Source: Larkinella humicola (GTDB lineage Bacteria > Bacteroidota > Bacteroidia > Cytophagales > Spirosomataceae). Taken from it: a stretch of DNA of 64,000 nucleotides. This document shows positions 3 through 62,700 of the stretch, in pieces. Position 1 is the first letter of the stretch, and every line of letters begins with the position of its first letter. The position numbers were made by a program, and so were the translations under genes. Under the pieces are notes generated by a model that did not search any database, was not told where the DNA came from, and saw only the letters and a program-made list of their open reading frames with translations. Location: NCBI RefSeq assembly GCF_008727875.1, contig NZ_VTWS01000011.1, positions 62,001 through 126,000 on the forward strand. Direction: 5' to 3'.

Positions 3-893
3 ACGTATTCGGGTTTGAACCTGCTGGTCAGTGGTGCCACGGTAACGCTATCCGACAATGCCGGGAATCAGGAGGTGCTTCGGGAAGCCAGTCCGGGCTA
101 TTACCAAACTGCGGCAACCGGCATCCGGGGCACTGTAGGCCGCTCGTATAAAATCGCCATCCGAACCACCGACGGGAAACAATATGAATCGTCTCTGGAA
201 GTATTAAAAACCGCCCCGCCGATTAGCCAACTGAGTTACGAATACCAGTATAATACGGCATCCTTCGAAAACGACAAACGGAACACCTGGGCCGTTTATC
301 TGGACACCAAAGACCCGGAAACGCCCGGCGATTATTACCGGTGGGTGTGGAAGAATTACGAGTTTACGGCAGCCTGTCAGTTGAGCCCCAATATCAATTC
401 GGAGGGATACTACATGGGGTTACCTTGCTGCACGGATTGCTGGGATATTAACCAGTGCTACAGCAACTGCATCAACATCAGCTCCGACGCGGCCATCAAC
501 GGAAAAGCCATTAGCCGTCAATATATTATGAGCGTACCGTTTACGTCGCGCGGCATGTATTACGTGGAAGTGGAGCAGCAATCGATCAGTCCGGGTGCCT
601 ACCAGTTTTTCAACAGTGTCAAAAAACTGGTCAACAACACGGGCGGTTTATTTGATGCCGCTCCGGCGGCCGTTGGCGGAAATATCAAGTGTACCAGCAA
701 TCCGGGCGAGGTCGTTTACGGGTATTTTGGGGCCGCCGGGGTTAGCGTAATGGCTTTAAAAGTCGATCGGTCGAAAGAGGCCGTCGGCATTCCAAACGGC
801 AAGAATATCCTGCTCGATAACCTGGCGCCCTGCCTTGCCTGCGAAAACAGCATCTACCGAACACCCAACAAACCCCGATTCTGGGATCAGTAG
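3..893 (+). CDS. DUF4249 domain-containing protein, 3' part
   Basis: The reading frame is already open at the left edge, so the N-terminus (signal peptide or lipobox) is missing; the first in-frame start-like codon, TTG at 15, is internal. The visible part has the DUF4249 pattern: a beta-rich stretch with GATVTLSDNAG, then GIRGTVGRSYKIAIRTTDGK, and near the C-terminus GEVVYGYFGAAGVSVMAL. Members are cell-envelope proteins of Bacteroidota, usually encoded beside TonB receptors; their function is unknown. Eight or more cysteines lie in the middle part. The last six codons and the stop form the left arm of a REP hairpin (876-956), so the gene ends inside an inverted repeat. Confidence 0.75.
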   Translation, partial: TYSGLNLLVSGATVTLSDNAGNQEVLREASPGYYQTAATGIRGTVGRSYKIAIRTTDGKQYESSLEVLKTAPPISQLSYEYQYNTASFENDKRNTWAVYLDTKDPETPGDYYRWVWKNYEFTAACQLSPNINSEGYYMGLPCCTDCWDINQCYSNCINISSDAAINGKAISRQYIMSVPFTSRGMYYVEVEQQSISPGAYQFFNSVKKLVNNTGGLFDAAPAAVGGNIKCTSNPGEVVYGYFGAAGVSVMALKVDRSKEAVGIPNGKNILLDNLAPCLACENSIYRTPNKPRFWDQ

Positions 894-956
894 CTTCCCA
901 CCCCGTCAGCGGTCGCAGACCCTGACAGCGGTGGGAAGCCACTGATCCCAGAATCG
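876..956 (+). repeat. REP hairpin 1, overlapping the DUF4249 3' end
   Basis: An imperfect inverted repeat of about 27 bases per arm encloses the core CCCCGTCAG-CGGTCGCAGACC-CTGACAG. The outer left arm (876-902) is the 3' end of the DUF4249 gene including its stop. The outer right arm (930-956) is its reverse complement with one mismatch. The core is shared with the three other hairpins around the RAYT gene; the outer arms are not. Confidence 0.85.
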
Positions 957-1000
957 TCCAAATAAACCGCTAATAGGGTCCCAAATAACACCTTCCAAGG

Positions 1001-1070
1001 TCATCCAATCAGGATCCGCACCCCGTCAGGGTCTTCGACCGCTGACGGGGTGCGGATCCTGATTGGATGA
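1001..1070 (-). repeat. REP hairpin 2, upstream of the RAYT gene
   Basis: A perfect inverted repeat: 1001-1029 is the exact reverse complement of 1042-1070, giving a 29-bp stem with a 12-nt loop. The inner part is the REP core in the opposite orientation to hairpin 1. The outer 17-19 bp are unique to this copy. It ends 42 bp before the RAYT start codon. Confidence 0.9.
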
Positions 1071-1112
1071 CTTTTAGTACCGGTTTTCGTCAAAACCTAA
1101 AACGAAAAACCG

Positions 1113-1739
1113 ATGGAAGAAATTGAGCCCCTCGAGCCAGGGCGGTATTACCACATTTACAACCGTGGAATCAATGGAACAGCCCTTTTTTCCACCGCCC
1201 ACCATTATCGTTTCTTCTTAATACAATATGCCAACTACCTAACTCCGGTTGTTGACACGTTTGCATATTGCCTCATGAAAAACCACTTTCATCTGATGGT
1301 TCGGGTAAAAGAAGTGCATGAATTTGATCAGGAGAAACTTTTAAGCGAACGGGGCTGGTTGAAAGTCCCCAATGCCAGCCGACAATTTTCCAATCTCTTC
1401 AACAGTTATGCGCAAGATTTCAATGCCAATACCCAACGAACCGGCAGTTTGTTCGAACGCCCTTTTCACCGGAAAGTGGTTACGGATGACTCTTACTTTA
1501 CCCGGCTTATTTTCTACATTCACAATAACCCCGTTAAACACGGCGTAACCGGAGATTTGACAACGTATTTGTCTTCTTCCTACCAGAGTCACCTATCGGC
1601 TAAGCCTACTTTATTGATGCGGGAAGCGGTTTTGACGTGGTTTGGCGGGAGAAAAGAATACATTCATTTCCACCAGGACATGAGCAACGAGGACTTTGGC
1701 GACCTATTCACCCACCCCGTCAGCGGTCGCAGACCCTGA
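1113..1739 (+). CDS. REP-associated tyrosine transposase (RAYT, Y1_Tnp family)
   Basis: A 208-residue single-domain HUH nuclease related to IS200/IS605 TnpA. It has the family opening YYHIYNRG, the metal-binding histidine pair in MKNHFHLMV (about residue 52), and SLFERPFHRKVV followed by YFTRLIFYIHNNPVKHG, where the catalytic tyrosine is expected. RAYTs are domesticated transposases that bind and cut REP hairpins, and this gene lies between two inverted pairs of such hairpins (876-1070 and 1712-1833). The last nine codons (HPVSGRRP and stop) lie inside the third REP copy. The ATG at 1113 gives a normal family length. Confidence 0.9.
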   Translation: MEEIEPLEPGRYYHIYNRGINGTALFSTAHHYRFFLIQYANYLTPVVDTFAYCLMKNHFHLMVRVKEVHEFDQEKLLSERGWLKVPNASRQFSNLFNSYAQDFNANTQRTGSLFERPFHRKVVTDDSYFTRLIFYIHNNPVKHGVTGDLTTYLSSSYQSHLSAKPTLLMREAVLTWFGGRKEYIHFHQDMSNEDFGDLFTHPVSGRRP

Positions 1740-1745
1740 CAGGGT
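1712..1745 (+). repeat. REP hairpin 3, overlapping the RAYT stop
   Basis: A forward copy of the REP core (CACCCCGTCAG, then CGGTCGCAGACC, then CTGACAGGGTT). It has only the short core stem and no long unique arms. The RAYT stop codon TGA (1737-1739) is part of the CTGACAG half-site, so the transposase C-terminus is encoded by its own repeat. Confidence 0.8.
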
Positions 1746-1756
1746 TGAAATCCGGG

Positions 1757-1833
1757 CCCTACTTGATTGTGATACCCTACCGCTGTCAGGGTCTGCGACC
1801 ACTGACGGGGTGGGGTATCACAATCAAGTAGGG
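1757..1833 (-). repeat. REP hairpin 4, downstream of the RAYT gene
   Basis: The outer arms are a perfect 21-bp inverted repeat beginning CCCTACTTGATTG at 1757 and ending at 1833. Inside is a REP core in reverse orientation whose two halves differ slightly (CTGTCAG against CCGTCAG). With hairpin 3 it forms a head-to-head pair, mirroring hairpins 1 and 2. Confidence 0.88.
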
Positions 1834-1901
1834 TCACCATTCGCACAGGTTTTACACCTTTCCTTCAAATATCTCCCGGCCATATCGTAAATTTGGCGGC
1901 A

Positions 1902-7466: not shown

Positions 7467-7571
7467 AGTGAGTTGTGATTGAGCGATTGAGTGAAAGTAT
7501 GTTCATTGATTTTCACGCAACCGCTCAATCACAACTCACTTAACAACCAATTCACACAATCGCTCAATCAC
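7467..7571 (+). repeat. Intergenic palindrome of gattgag words
   Basis: The left arm AGTGAGTTGTGATTGAGCG (7467-7485) is the exact reverse complement of 7522-7540, enclosing 36 nt. Degenerate copies of the same word follow (7561-7571 repeats CGCTCAATCAC). It fills the spacer between two genes of one apparent operon. Confidence 0.8.
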
Positions 7572-8629: not shown

Positions 8630-8638
8630 CAAGAGTTG

Positions 8639-8730
8639 TTTCGCGGAGATGAGCGGAGAAAAAAGGGAGCTAAGCGGAGAGAATTAATAACTCCGTTTAA
8701 CTCCTTCTTTCTCCGCTCAACTCCGCGAAA
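8639..8730 (+). repeat. Intergenic palindrome of GGAG/CTCC words
   Basis: A 23-base arm at 8639-8661 pairs with 8708-8730 with one mismatch, and inner GGAG..CGGAG words pair with CTCCG..CTCC words, so nearly the whole spacer folds as one hairpin. It lies between the ASKHA gene and the next membrane gene, 13 bp before the latter's ATG. Confidence 0.82.
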
Positions 8731-8743
8731 TAATTTTATAATC

Positions 8744-15269: not shown

Positions 15270-15334
15270 GAGTTAAGAGTTAAAAATTAACTTCCAACTC
15301 TTAACTTCCAACTCTTAACTTCCAACTCTTAACT
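15270..15334 (+). repeat. Intergenic block of CTTCCAACTCTTAA repeats
   Basis: Three direct copies of a 14-base word (CTTCCAACTCTTAA), preceded by the inverse words GAGTTAAGAGTTAA at 15279-15293, so the block can fold on itself. It occupies almost the whole spacer between the SurA-like gene and moxR. Confidence 0.8.
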
Positions 15335-15342
15335 CCTATCCT

Positions 15343-16446: not shown

Positions 16447-16485
16447 ATTCTCCGTCATCAACCTTTTCGGTTGATGACGGAGAAT
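16447..16485 (+). repeat. Perfect 17-bp hairpin in the leader of the 16509 gene
   Basis: ATTCTCCGTCATCAACC at 16447-16463 is repeated as its exact reverse complement at 16469-16485 with a TTTTC loop. There is no T run, and the ATG at 16509 lies 23 bp downstream, so a leader-RNA or protein-binding role is as likely as termination. Confidence 0.75.
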
Positions 16486-59129: not shown

Positions 59130-59711
59130 AAGTTCAAACTAAAAAAGATTTAATTAGCCTATGAACTGGGCATAGCGTGCAGTGAGGATCAAACTGGATG
59201 AGGCTTGGTGCAGATAAATTTACTTCTTTAATTTGATTAATACACCCCTTATTTTACCGCTTTTTAACGACTGATCGATGTGAATGGACATGGATCGGGG
59301 GTTTAAACTATCCACTCTGGTTAAAGTTTGGTTTGGTAGACCAAATCGAAAATCCCTTTATAACCAATGGGGCACTTGGTTATACGTACTTTCTGAAATC
59401 ATAATTATCCTTACCTCTGTAATTTCGGAGTGAATACCCTTTTGCTCGGGTCTATTTAATCATGACCCGCCTGGGTAAAGGATTTTAAATTTTACATAAT
59501 TTTTGAGTCGTCCCGAAAATATCGACATAGGCGTGCTTTAGGTTTCCGAATTCAAACTGGCAATTACAGGCTCGCTTGGCTTCAAGTCGGCATAAAAAAC
59601 TAATGTTTTTATGCCGACTTGAAGGACTTAATTTAATTTCCAGTCTTAAGCCGTCCTGTTTCCACTCAGGGCGGCTTTTCAATTTGGTGGCCAGTCCACT
59701 ACTGCCACCCC
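59130..59711. other. Gene-free spacer before the tape-measure gene
   Basis: No gene is seen except the hairpin at 59580-59624. The right part near 59640-59711 again has the composition of the phage genes. Confidence 0.45.
59580..59624 (+). repeat. Perfect 19-bp hairpin before the tape-measure gene
   Basis: CTTCAAGTCGGCATAAAAA (59580-59598) pairs exactly with 59606-59624 around a 7-nt loop. The stem has A and T runs on both sides. It lies 87 bp before the tape-measure ATG and could be a terminator for either direction or the end of an inserted segment. Confidence 0.7.
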
Positions 59712-62700
59712 ATGAATCAGGTTGAAGAGAGTAAAATCAAGCTCATCATCGACGGCGAGGATGCCGAGCGGAGCCTGGCCGGACTGCGCCAGGAAGCCCG
59801 CGAAATCACCGCCGAAATGCGCCGGATGAAGGAAGCCGGGGAAGAAAACACCGGCGCCTACCCCCAACTCGCCGAGCAGAAAAAGCAGCTCAACGTCGAG
59901 ACCCGCGAATACCCCCAGAATCTGGACCTCGAAAACGCGTCGATCAACGAACTCCGGGCCCGCAAGCGCCTGCTCATTGGCGAGCTAAAAGACCTCAAAG
60001 TCAACTCCGATGACTGGCTGGACAAACTGAAGGAGGTCGCCGATGTCGATCAGCGGCTCGACGCCGTCAACGCCGAAATGCGCGCCCTCAAAGACCACAC
60101 CGACGACAACGTTTTGGTCTGGAGCCGCCTGAAAGAAACGTTTCTGGGTACTTTCGCGGCTTTTGCCCTGGACGACATCATTCAGGAGGTCGTTCAGTTT
60201 GGCCGCGAGTCGATCCAGGCGGCCGCCGAAACCTCGGATGCCTTCGCCGATATCGCCAAAAGCACCCAGATGACCACCGACGAAGTCGCGGCCCTGGATG
60301 CCCAGATCCGGCAGATCGACACCCGCACCGCCCAGGCTGAGCTGCTGGAGATTGCCAAAGTCGGCGGGCAAATCAATATTGCCAAAGACGAGATGCTGGG
60401 CTTCGTGCGGGCCACCGACCAGGCCGTGGTGGCCCTGGGCGATGAATTTTCCGGCGGGGTCGAAGAAGTCACGTCCAAGCTGGGAACGATGAAAAATCTC
60501 TTTCAGGAAACCAAAGAGATGGATGCCGGAACGGCTATTTCCAAAATCGGTTCGGCCCTTAATGAACTTGGCTCAGCGGGTACCGCTACCGCCCCGGTGG
60601 TCGCTGATTTCACCACTCGAATGGGGCAACTCGGCGATCTGTCGCCCCAGATCAGCCAGACGCTGGGATTAGGGGCCGCCTTTCAGGAACTGGGTCTGAG
60701 TGCCGAAATCTCCGCCGGTGGTCTATCCAACATCCTGCTGACGGCCGCCCAGGACACGGCCACCTTCGCCCGCCAGCTCGGTCTCACGGAAGGTGTGATG
60801 AAAAAGCTCATCAACACCAACCCCAACGAGTTTCTGTTGAAACTGGCCGAAAGTCTCCGGGGTTTACCCGCCGATCAGGTCGCCAAACAGTTGTCCGATC
60901 TGGGCATCAAATCGCAGGAAGCCACCAAAGTCATGTCGCTGCTGAAAGACCAGACCCAACTGGTGCGCGACAATCAACTGCTGGCCAACACGGCGATGAA
61001 GGACGGCACGTCTCTGACCAAAGAGTTTGAAATCAAGAACCAGACGGCGGCCGCCCAACTCGCCAAATTCGGCAAGGAAGTGCAATCGGCCTCGGTCGAT
61101 CTGGGCAATAAACTCCTACCGGCGGTGCTCAAAGGGGGTGAACTGGCCCTGACCTTTGGCAAAGCCATCGGAGCCTTACCCGGTTTTTTGAACGAAAACA
61201 AAGTCTCGATCGGTTTGCTGGCTGCGGACCTGATTACCTTCAACGCCCAGGCCATTCTGGCCGAAGCCAACTCCCTGCGCCTGGCAGCCGCCGAGAAAAT
61301 CCGCACCATCGCCACCGAAGGAGCCGCCATCGCCCAGCGGCTGTTGAACGTGGCGATGTCGGCTAACCCCATCGGGGCCGTCATCGCCATTCTGCTCACG
61401 CTGGGGGCGGCCCTGGTGGCGGCTTACCAGCACAGCGAAACCTTCCGGGCGAGCGTCAACGGACTCTGGCAGGCGATGAAAACCGCGGCTGACGTCGCCA
61501 TCCAGTTTGTCAAAGCCTTTGTCACGATGGACATCAAGGGCATGGCCGACGCCATGCTCAACAGCGGCAAACGGGTGGCCGATGCCTTCAGTACCACCTA
61601 CCAGGCCACCCTCAAAGCGGGTCACGCCAAAACCGAAGCCGATCACCAGACCCACGTCGACAAAAAAGCCACGGCCTCCAAAACCGGGGCCGAGAAAGCC
61701 GCTAAAGATGCCCAACTCGCCAACCAAACGGGTCTCACCCAGATCACGCTGGACAATGCCGGTTTTCTTTCCGAGGATGCCAAAAAGCGCCAGGAGCACG
61801 AAAGGCAGCGGGCCGAAGAAAAGAAAAAGGCCAATCAGGACGCCATCGATGCGGCCCGCAAAGCCACGATCGAAGCCATCGCCGATGAAAAGGAGCGCAA
61901 AATCGCCCAGCTTCGTTTCGAAACCGATCAGGAAAAACAGCGTATCTGGGAAAGTGAAGCCGACCACAAATTGAAGCTGACGCAGTTTGCGGCCGCCGAA
62001 AGTGCCTACGAAACCTGCAAAGCCCAAATTGAAAAAGAGTACCGGGATAAAAAAGAGAAAGAGGATCGCGAAGCCGCCGAGAAACAGCAGAAACTGCTCA
62101 TCAGTCTGATCGCCGATGAACACGAGCGGAAACTGGCCGAGCTGACCTTCCAGGCCACCCAGGCCCGGGCCGAAGTCGAACTTACCATCACCGATGGAAA
62201 AAAGAGGGCCGACGCGCTCGACCAGATTAACAAGAAACTGTCGGCGGATATTCAGAAAGAAAACGAGGACCACCGCCAGCAGGAGCTGAAACGTAACCAG
62301 GAGAAGCGCGACAAGGAACTGGCCGCCGAAAAACAACTGTTCGATCTGCAGTTTCAGGCCGCCGTTGCCAATGCCGAGCTGTACCTGAATCTGGCCAAGA
62401 ATAACGCCCAGGCCATCTACGACGCCAAAAAACAGCGGCTCGATGCCGAATACCAGTACAACCGTCAGAAGCTGCAGAACGAAGCCGCCGAAGAAAAGGC
62501 CAAGAACGCCGAGCTGATCGCCGATCACGACAAACTTGCGGCCGCCGACAAAGCCATCGACGACCGGCTGAAAGCCCAGCTTACGGCCAACGACCAGAAG
62601 TACGAAGCCGACAAAACGACGCTGACCCAGGAACGCACCGCCCAGCGGCTGGCCAACCAGCAGCAGTTTTTCAATGCGGTGGATGGCCTGATGAAAGGCG

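Follow-up and report, generated by a model that had tools for sequence, protein, structure and literature searches.

How did the hairpins around a transposase gene of Larkinella humicola come to carry long palindromic arms that differ from one site to the next? A sequence-only reading of this locus had held that RAYT insertion is tied to palindromes here, which it would either create by fold-back copying or target as terminator hairpins. The locus lies in the window, as we call the whole 64-kb stretch of DNA analysed, within the 7.86-Mb L. humicola genome (G000, the own genome), and has the gene order DUF4249 gene - REP - REP - RAYT - REP - REP - heptosyltransferase-like gene. Among the relatives, G004, G007 and G008 appear to be L. 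punicea ZZJ9, Larkinella sp. C7 and L. terrae KCTC 52001, respectively. A three-gene tree grouped the closest species as ((G000,G007),G004), at ~5% divergence, with G003, G005 and G008 14–16% away from these three and the position of G003 poorly supported. Nine of the 12 prepared flank queries were used.

A RAYT-like gene flanked by four REP cores

The central gene (1113..1739, + strand) encodes a RAYT-like Y1/HUH transposase of 208 aa with the motifs NHFH and YIHNNP. Its match to NF047646 (E 7.6e-13) scored 48.6 bits, under the cut-off of 80, and no Pfam match was found for it at 0.001. Four REP cores flank the gene. Cores 1 (901..931, +), 2 (1021..1050, -) and 3 (1780..1810, -) are the centres of what we call units 1, 2 and 3; core 4 (1715..1744, +) is bare and overlaps the 3' end of the RAYT gene, whose C-terminal residues PVSGRRP and TGA stop come from it. 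The typical core is CCCTGTCAGCGGTCNNNGACCCTGACAGCGG, a stem with single-base bulges, core 2 being a symmetric variant (CCCCG...CGGGG) and core 3 the variant GTCAGTGG. The own genome holds 49 core matches at up to 2 mismatches, many of them as close inverted pairs. A short many-copy hairpin repeat, partly in inverted pairs, and a Y1/HUH gene flanked by that repeat mark the locus as REP/RAYT.

Core abundance tracks the cognate RAYT: the four genomes with RAYT at this locus have 17–60 exact cores and the five without it there have 0–3, while other NF047646 matches occur in 8/9 Larkinella genomes. Between the two bordering genes, RAYT and exact cores are both absent from G003 and G005, with a related hairpin there in G005; L. 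terrae has RAYT and four cores, all without arms. Since RAYT is missing from G003 and G005 at this locus, cores in common with L. terrae require loss or repeated insertion.

Several further observations concern the cores themselves. In-frame cores give an upstream ORF a new C-terminus, mostly PVSGRRP, and a TGA stop; such C-termini were seen at 1113-1739, L021, L086, L100, L116, L122, L125, L138 and L144, and the 150 exact cores analysed below include 13 frames of at least 100 codons, 4 of which are the RAYT gene in four species. L144, in L. terrae, is a tandem array of four REP cores at 71-bp spacing. The core pattern was found in 10 of 150 genomes of the family, six of them Larkinella and four (G081, G018, G033 and G032) from other genera. 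A second type of hairpin was recognised by eye at L081, the G005 locus, where it occupies the place of the RAYT unit of other species, with similar ones in L183, L287, L166, L184 and L288; it has a REP-like outer stem, an inner GGCC stem, a longer loop and often a TACGAC motif.

Three cores carry site-specific arms

Three of the four REP copies had been read as carrying inverted-repeat arms of their own, and this was confirmed. The inverted repeats span 876-902/930-956 in unit 1 (27 nt, 96%), 997-1029/1042-1074 in unit 2 (33 nt, 97%) and 1757-1781/1809-1833 in unit 3 (25 nt, 96%), so placed that 25, 24 and 23 nt of arm, respectively, lie outside the core; the fourth core is armless. Folding of the single-stranded DNA gave -37.1, -44.1 and -36.7 kcal/mol for units 1, 2 and 3 (z between -12 and -15, with 0/200 shuffles as good for each), against -9.3 kcal/mol for bare core 4 (z -2.8, 3/200 shuffles as good).

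The arms, all given on the + strand, differ in how clearly their history can be read. The left arm of unit 1 (876..900) is the coding end of the DUF4249 gene (3' part at 15..893, +; PF14054, E 5.4e-36; its start may precede the window), as the sequence-only reading had it: the gene ends at 893, inside the arm, which is formed by its coding 3' end and stop codon. Orthologous sites have this left arm alone in G008, G003 and G005 and neither arm in the more distant G006, and the inverted copy of the coding end is seen only in the three close species. On this reading the left arm is the template and the right arm (932..956) its derived inverted copy. In unit 3 the right arm (1811..1833) matches an intergenic ATCATTTAT block that, by eye, is kept in G001, G002, G003, G005 and G008, and the left arm (1757..1779) would be the derived copy. 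With the less diverged arms of G004 the template side of unit 3 was present in G008, G005, G002 and G001 and absent in G003; with the own-genome arms neither arm was called in 5/5 orthologs. For unit 2, a short GATGACTTTT block on the opposite side, common to G008, weakly suggests that the left arm (997..1020) is the derived copy and the right arm (1051..1074) its inverted-repeat partner, the arm test itself returning 'neither'.

Palindromic flanks are frequent but not obligatory

We then scored arms by aligning the flanks of 150 exact cores from six genomes: 39 from the own genome, 56 from G004, 17 from G007, 33 from G008 (those among the matches listed, of 60 exact cores in that genome), 2 from G003 and 3 from G005. 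Window unit 3, with its variant core, lies outside this set. The distribution was strongly split: 30/150 cores reached an arm score of at least 10, where 9000 mispaired flanks predict 0.2, 14 scored 6 to 9.5, and 106 scored below 6 and are called bare. A chance origin of the arms is excluded by this excess. Armed cores made up 8/39 in the own genome, 16/56 in G004, 4/17 in G007, 1/3 in G005, 0/2 in G003 and, among the matches listed, 1/33 in G008. The sequence-only reading had counted it as a refutation if other copies mostly lacked palindromic flanks, and this is the case for 120/150 copies, which fall below a score of 10; such flanks recur far beyond chance and are thus frequent but not obligatory. 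Likewise, the split into 30 armed, 14 intermediate and 106 bare cores means that insertion neither needs nor always makes a palindrome. The arms adjoin the core directly; a palindrome offset by up to 10 bases was found at 0/120 unarmed cores (2/900 mispaired controls).

Unarmed orthologs mostly have one arm

To polarise the arms we took a subset of the armed sites, the 20 with available orthologs (21 rows, RAYT3, the unit 3 site, being entered twice with two arm versions), and compared them with orthologs lacking the armed unit. Of 56 comparisons, 31 showed a single arm (left in 28, right in 3), 2 showed both arms and 23 neither; 15 of the 56 segments, including 7 of the 31, were anchored on a single flank. 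Because the threshold was set at 95% per arm, some weak calls will be chance, and calls at L041, L147, L086b and part of L109 and L098 passed by 1–2 points; five sites, RAYT2 (unit 2) included, were wholly unpolarised and L090 and L098 were mixed. The strongest cases are L120, with its left arm found in 5/5 species; L017, with matches of 12/12, 10/12 and 9/12 in 3/3 comparisons; L086a, with template-arm matches of 20/22 and 16/22; L122, with 14/18; and L027, where, as at L015, the right arm matched 17/17. At RAYT1, the site of unit 1, the left arm matched 17/25 in core-less G003.

The pre-existing arm is coding DNA at six sites (RAYT1, L017, L021/L116, L086a, L086b and L122), that of L017 being a short ORF kept in core-less G003. 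At polarised sites one arm is therefore local single-copy DNA, and the idea that the arms are part of the mobile unit was rejected for this reason. A new inverted copy of single-copy flanking DNA is one of the traces that template switching should leave, and it was found in the 31 one-armed comparisons as well as at a palindrome without REP described below.

Whether arms came with the insertion or after it can be addressed at some sites. The orthologous cores of L. terrae are bare at four sites, RAYT1-3 and L122, at the last of which the REP is read in the same frame in both species; at these sites the arms are later than the insertion or were lost in L. terrae, and we take the comparison as suggesting that they probably postdate it. 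The bare state of G007 at L021 and L041 resembles a secondary deletion between two cores, so it is no proof of later arms there.

Arms change in concert and cores flip

We next compared 12 hand-chosen sites armed in at least two species, including L015, for which the set takes in G004, where the arm is largely broken. Of 395 paired cells, which are pairwise and not independent, 26 had changed on both sides and still paired (1.0 expected), at 9/12 sites; in 16 others a single side had changed, and in 1 both sides had changed and did not pair. At L028/L087/L134 a single pair reads G-C, A-T and C-G across three species. At the orthologous site L104 versus L192, by eye, the two species have unrelated ~20-bp arms and one has a variant core.

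Inversion also affects the core itself: it lies in opposite orientations between its arms at L015/L128 and at L028-L087/L134, and the flipped core at L022/L106 is a bare one. Among 22 single-core ortholog pairs, 14 have the same orientation and 8 are inverted; 3 of these 8, at two sites, were accepted as flips, the third flip site, L015/L128, coming from a separate reading. The other 5 inverted pairs were not counted, as they come from distant species and may be separate insertions. Two-sided concerted change beyond chance and inversion of the spacer (core or loop) between arms are further traces of template switching.

Palindromes without a REP core

Nine other places in the window have inverted repeats of at least 16 nt. 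One clear non-REP event is at L022:613-667, where the own genome has a perfect 25-bp palindrome and L. punicea the right arm only, with the five-base loop, by eye, inverted; template switching is expected to leave this footprint. In a survey of 103 palindromes, a loose pattern detected no core in 39, of which some are still REP-derived, and the other genome was also palindromic in 58/79 ortholog comparisons. At 7467, 8636 and 15270 the orthologous sites elsewhere are also palindromic, by eye with wholly different arm sequences in several species.

Some of these places deserve separate mention. At 7467-7571 and 15270-15335 several Larkinella species have a palindrome whose arm sequences, by eye, differ between some of them. 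The stretch 8636-8733 is a ~100-bp hairpin repeat (TTGTTTCGCGGAG...) with at least 57–67 matches in 6/9 genomes, on both strands; at the orthologous site, sp. C7 and G001 have, by eye, a palindrome of another family, both arms being exchanged. A perfect 17-bp palindrome at 16447-16485 is absent at the site in G004 and G007; its reading as a clean new creation was given up, as it is not clearly polarised: the right-arm matches lie upstream of the site and the arm test gave the right arm only in G007 and neither in G004. A separate stretch, 59200-60000, has matches in 5/9 genomes, partial outside the own genome, and was set aside.

Probable fold-back copying seeded by REP hairpins

One-armed orthologs, coding template arms and arms that abut the core argue for the creation of palindromes at these sites and against insertion into existing loops. 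Taken together, the comparisons indicate that fold-back DNA copying probably wrote the arms in place, and that the hairpins did not enter ready-made palindromes; of the two alternatives that the sequence-only reading had offered, the first is supported. We consider general intrastrand template switching, seeded by REP hairpins that RAYT supplies, to be the likely mechanism. The cores of this RAYT family are short, stable hairpins, and after insertion the core hairpin would sometimes become the turning point of a template switch. A growing strand in which the core has just been copied would fold back on the core's own stem; its 3' end would copy the just-made strand outward from the core for ~10–28 bases and then return to the normal template. 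The outcome would be an inverted copy, on the core's other side, of the DNA next to it, which at several sites is coding sequence from a gene end. Later re-copying of one arm from the other would give concerted evolution, and also flips of the core between the arms. RAYT supplies the seed, and the copying would most likely be done by replication or repair enzymes, presumably on a replication intermediate, with the arms at most sites added after insertion. DNA polymerase I is said to bind palindromic units of E. coli. Loss of hairpin nucleases was considered as a cause and rejected: SbcD is present in 9/9 Larkinella genomes, and the ExoI C-terminal family, found in 0/9, is also absent from 13/14 control genomes, so its absence is uninformative.

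Could RAYT itself write the arms? If it nicked the REP hairpin at its 3' foot, the freed 3' OH could prime fold-back synthesis along the left flank, at insertion or later. The template is indeed on the core's left at 10 uncontradicted sites (and at L086a in 2/3 comparisons) and on its right at 2; by our own reading of core classes, 36 of the 150 cores are symmetrised left-to-right and 5 right-to-left; and close relatives of the RAYT at this locus are present in the four genomes with at least 17 cores. Against this, several left calls are weak, the left flank, being coding in many cases, is easier to recognise, and the CAGGG and CAGCGG classes are perhaps mere subfamilies. A palindrome also arose at a non-REP site, L. 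terrae has RAYT and many cores with 1/33 armed among the matches listed, and 8/9 genomes of the genus have other NF047646 matches. We therefore regard direct writing by RAYT as unlikely, and we think it equally unlikely that REP/RAYT is an active palindrome-writing system, a mobile element through which ordinary ends of genes become long hairpins that are still evolving. A mechanism specific to REP, favoured at first, was weakened by the non-REP palindromes. The claim that RAYT insertion is tied to palindromes is not supported, given the 106/150 bare cores, the four armless L. terrae sites and the perfect palindrome at one clear non-REP site.

Selection on RNA is a quite unlikely source of the arms. 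They would then be RNA hairpins that stabilise 3' ends, with compensatory point mutations preserving the pairing. Several units do stand at gene 3' ends, pairing is maintained, and 7/16 one-sided changes involve a G-T pair; but 18/26 concerted changes are transversions, for which a single G-U intermediate offers no path, the stepwise building of perfect 20–28 bp copies of coding DNA is improbable, and cores flip. Selection may still act on the products of copying.

That a REP entered the loop of an existing terminator or other hairpin, the arms being the old stem, is very unlikely as a general account. Non-REP inverted repeats are common, as the nine other window places show, and the own genome is two-armed and core-less at L098. 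This is the only site with a convincing core-less two-armed ortholog, and its empty form seems to fit deletion of a palindrome centre. Orthologs lacking the unit have one arm far more often than two (31 versus 2 of 56), arms abut the core with no offset palindrome at any of the 120 unarmed cores, and coding ends of genes are among the arms. The armed stems also fail the form of an intrinsic terminator (a GC stem followed by a T tract): four terminator-like calls were made within 600-2200, where shuffling predicts 2.0, and none fell on an armed stem, one (1741-1760) overlapping the left arm of unit 3 at its outer end. Targeting of existing hairpins, contradicted at the polarised sites, was rejected as the general rule, and L098 was kept as an exception. 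Assembly or library fold-back artefacts are extremely improbable, for although some arms are seen in a single assembly (e.g. L120 in G004), arms that differ in a concerted way turn up in the independent assemblies of three species.

Relation to known elements and mechanisms

The Larkinella elements resemble the REP/RAYT systems (REPtron, tnpA_REP) of PMC6006769 in their many-copy hairpin repeats, often in inverted pairs, around an HUH/Y1 gene with NHFH and YIHNNP, and in the insertion of a REP into the transposase gene; judged by motifs alone, the nearest subclass is 2.4 of that paper. They differ in their long site-specific arms of inverted host DNA, which the portion of that paper available to us does not describe. 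At microRNA loci and in rRNA genes, RNA hairpins are reported to arise and persist through template switching (PMC8794818), with reverse-complement copies giving perfect stems, two-sided changes and loop inversions as here; in Larkinella, unlike there, the nucleus would be a mobile hairpin that grows outward into flanking bacterial DNA, coding sequence included. Correction of E. coli quasipalindromes by template switching (PMC7202029) and homogenisation of yeast inverted repeats with inversion of the spacer (PMC8604942) likewise parallel the arm homogenisation and the spacer inversion between inverted repeats; what those accounts describe is correction of existing imperfect repeats, whereas Larkinella also gains new arms beside a seed hairpin. 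Pseudomonas has TIRtrons as well as double inverted repeats in which REP is combined with unrelated stem-loops (PMC3733652); there too degenerate REP units are joined to stem-loops unrelated to them, in hundreds of copies and in structures called 'bizarre', and the available part of that paper gives no origin for them. Our searches of openly licensed PMC papers yielded no title or abstract opening linking REP elements and template switching. Both the element and the mutational mechanism described here are known; their combination did not turn up in these searches.

These results suggest a route by which REP hairpins gain unrelated outer stems, the form that was called bizarre in Pseudomonas, and show that gene ends can be converted to long hairpins, probably in one step. 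The Larkinella genomes offer a many-replicate natural record of the birth of palindromes in bacterial chromosomes, with the states before and after in species ~5% apart, and a system in which to ask whether mobile hairpins seed mutations and whether they are assisted in this by a Y1 transposase.
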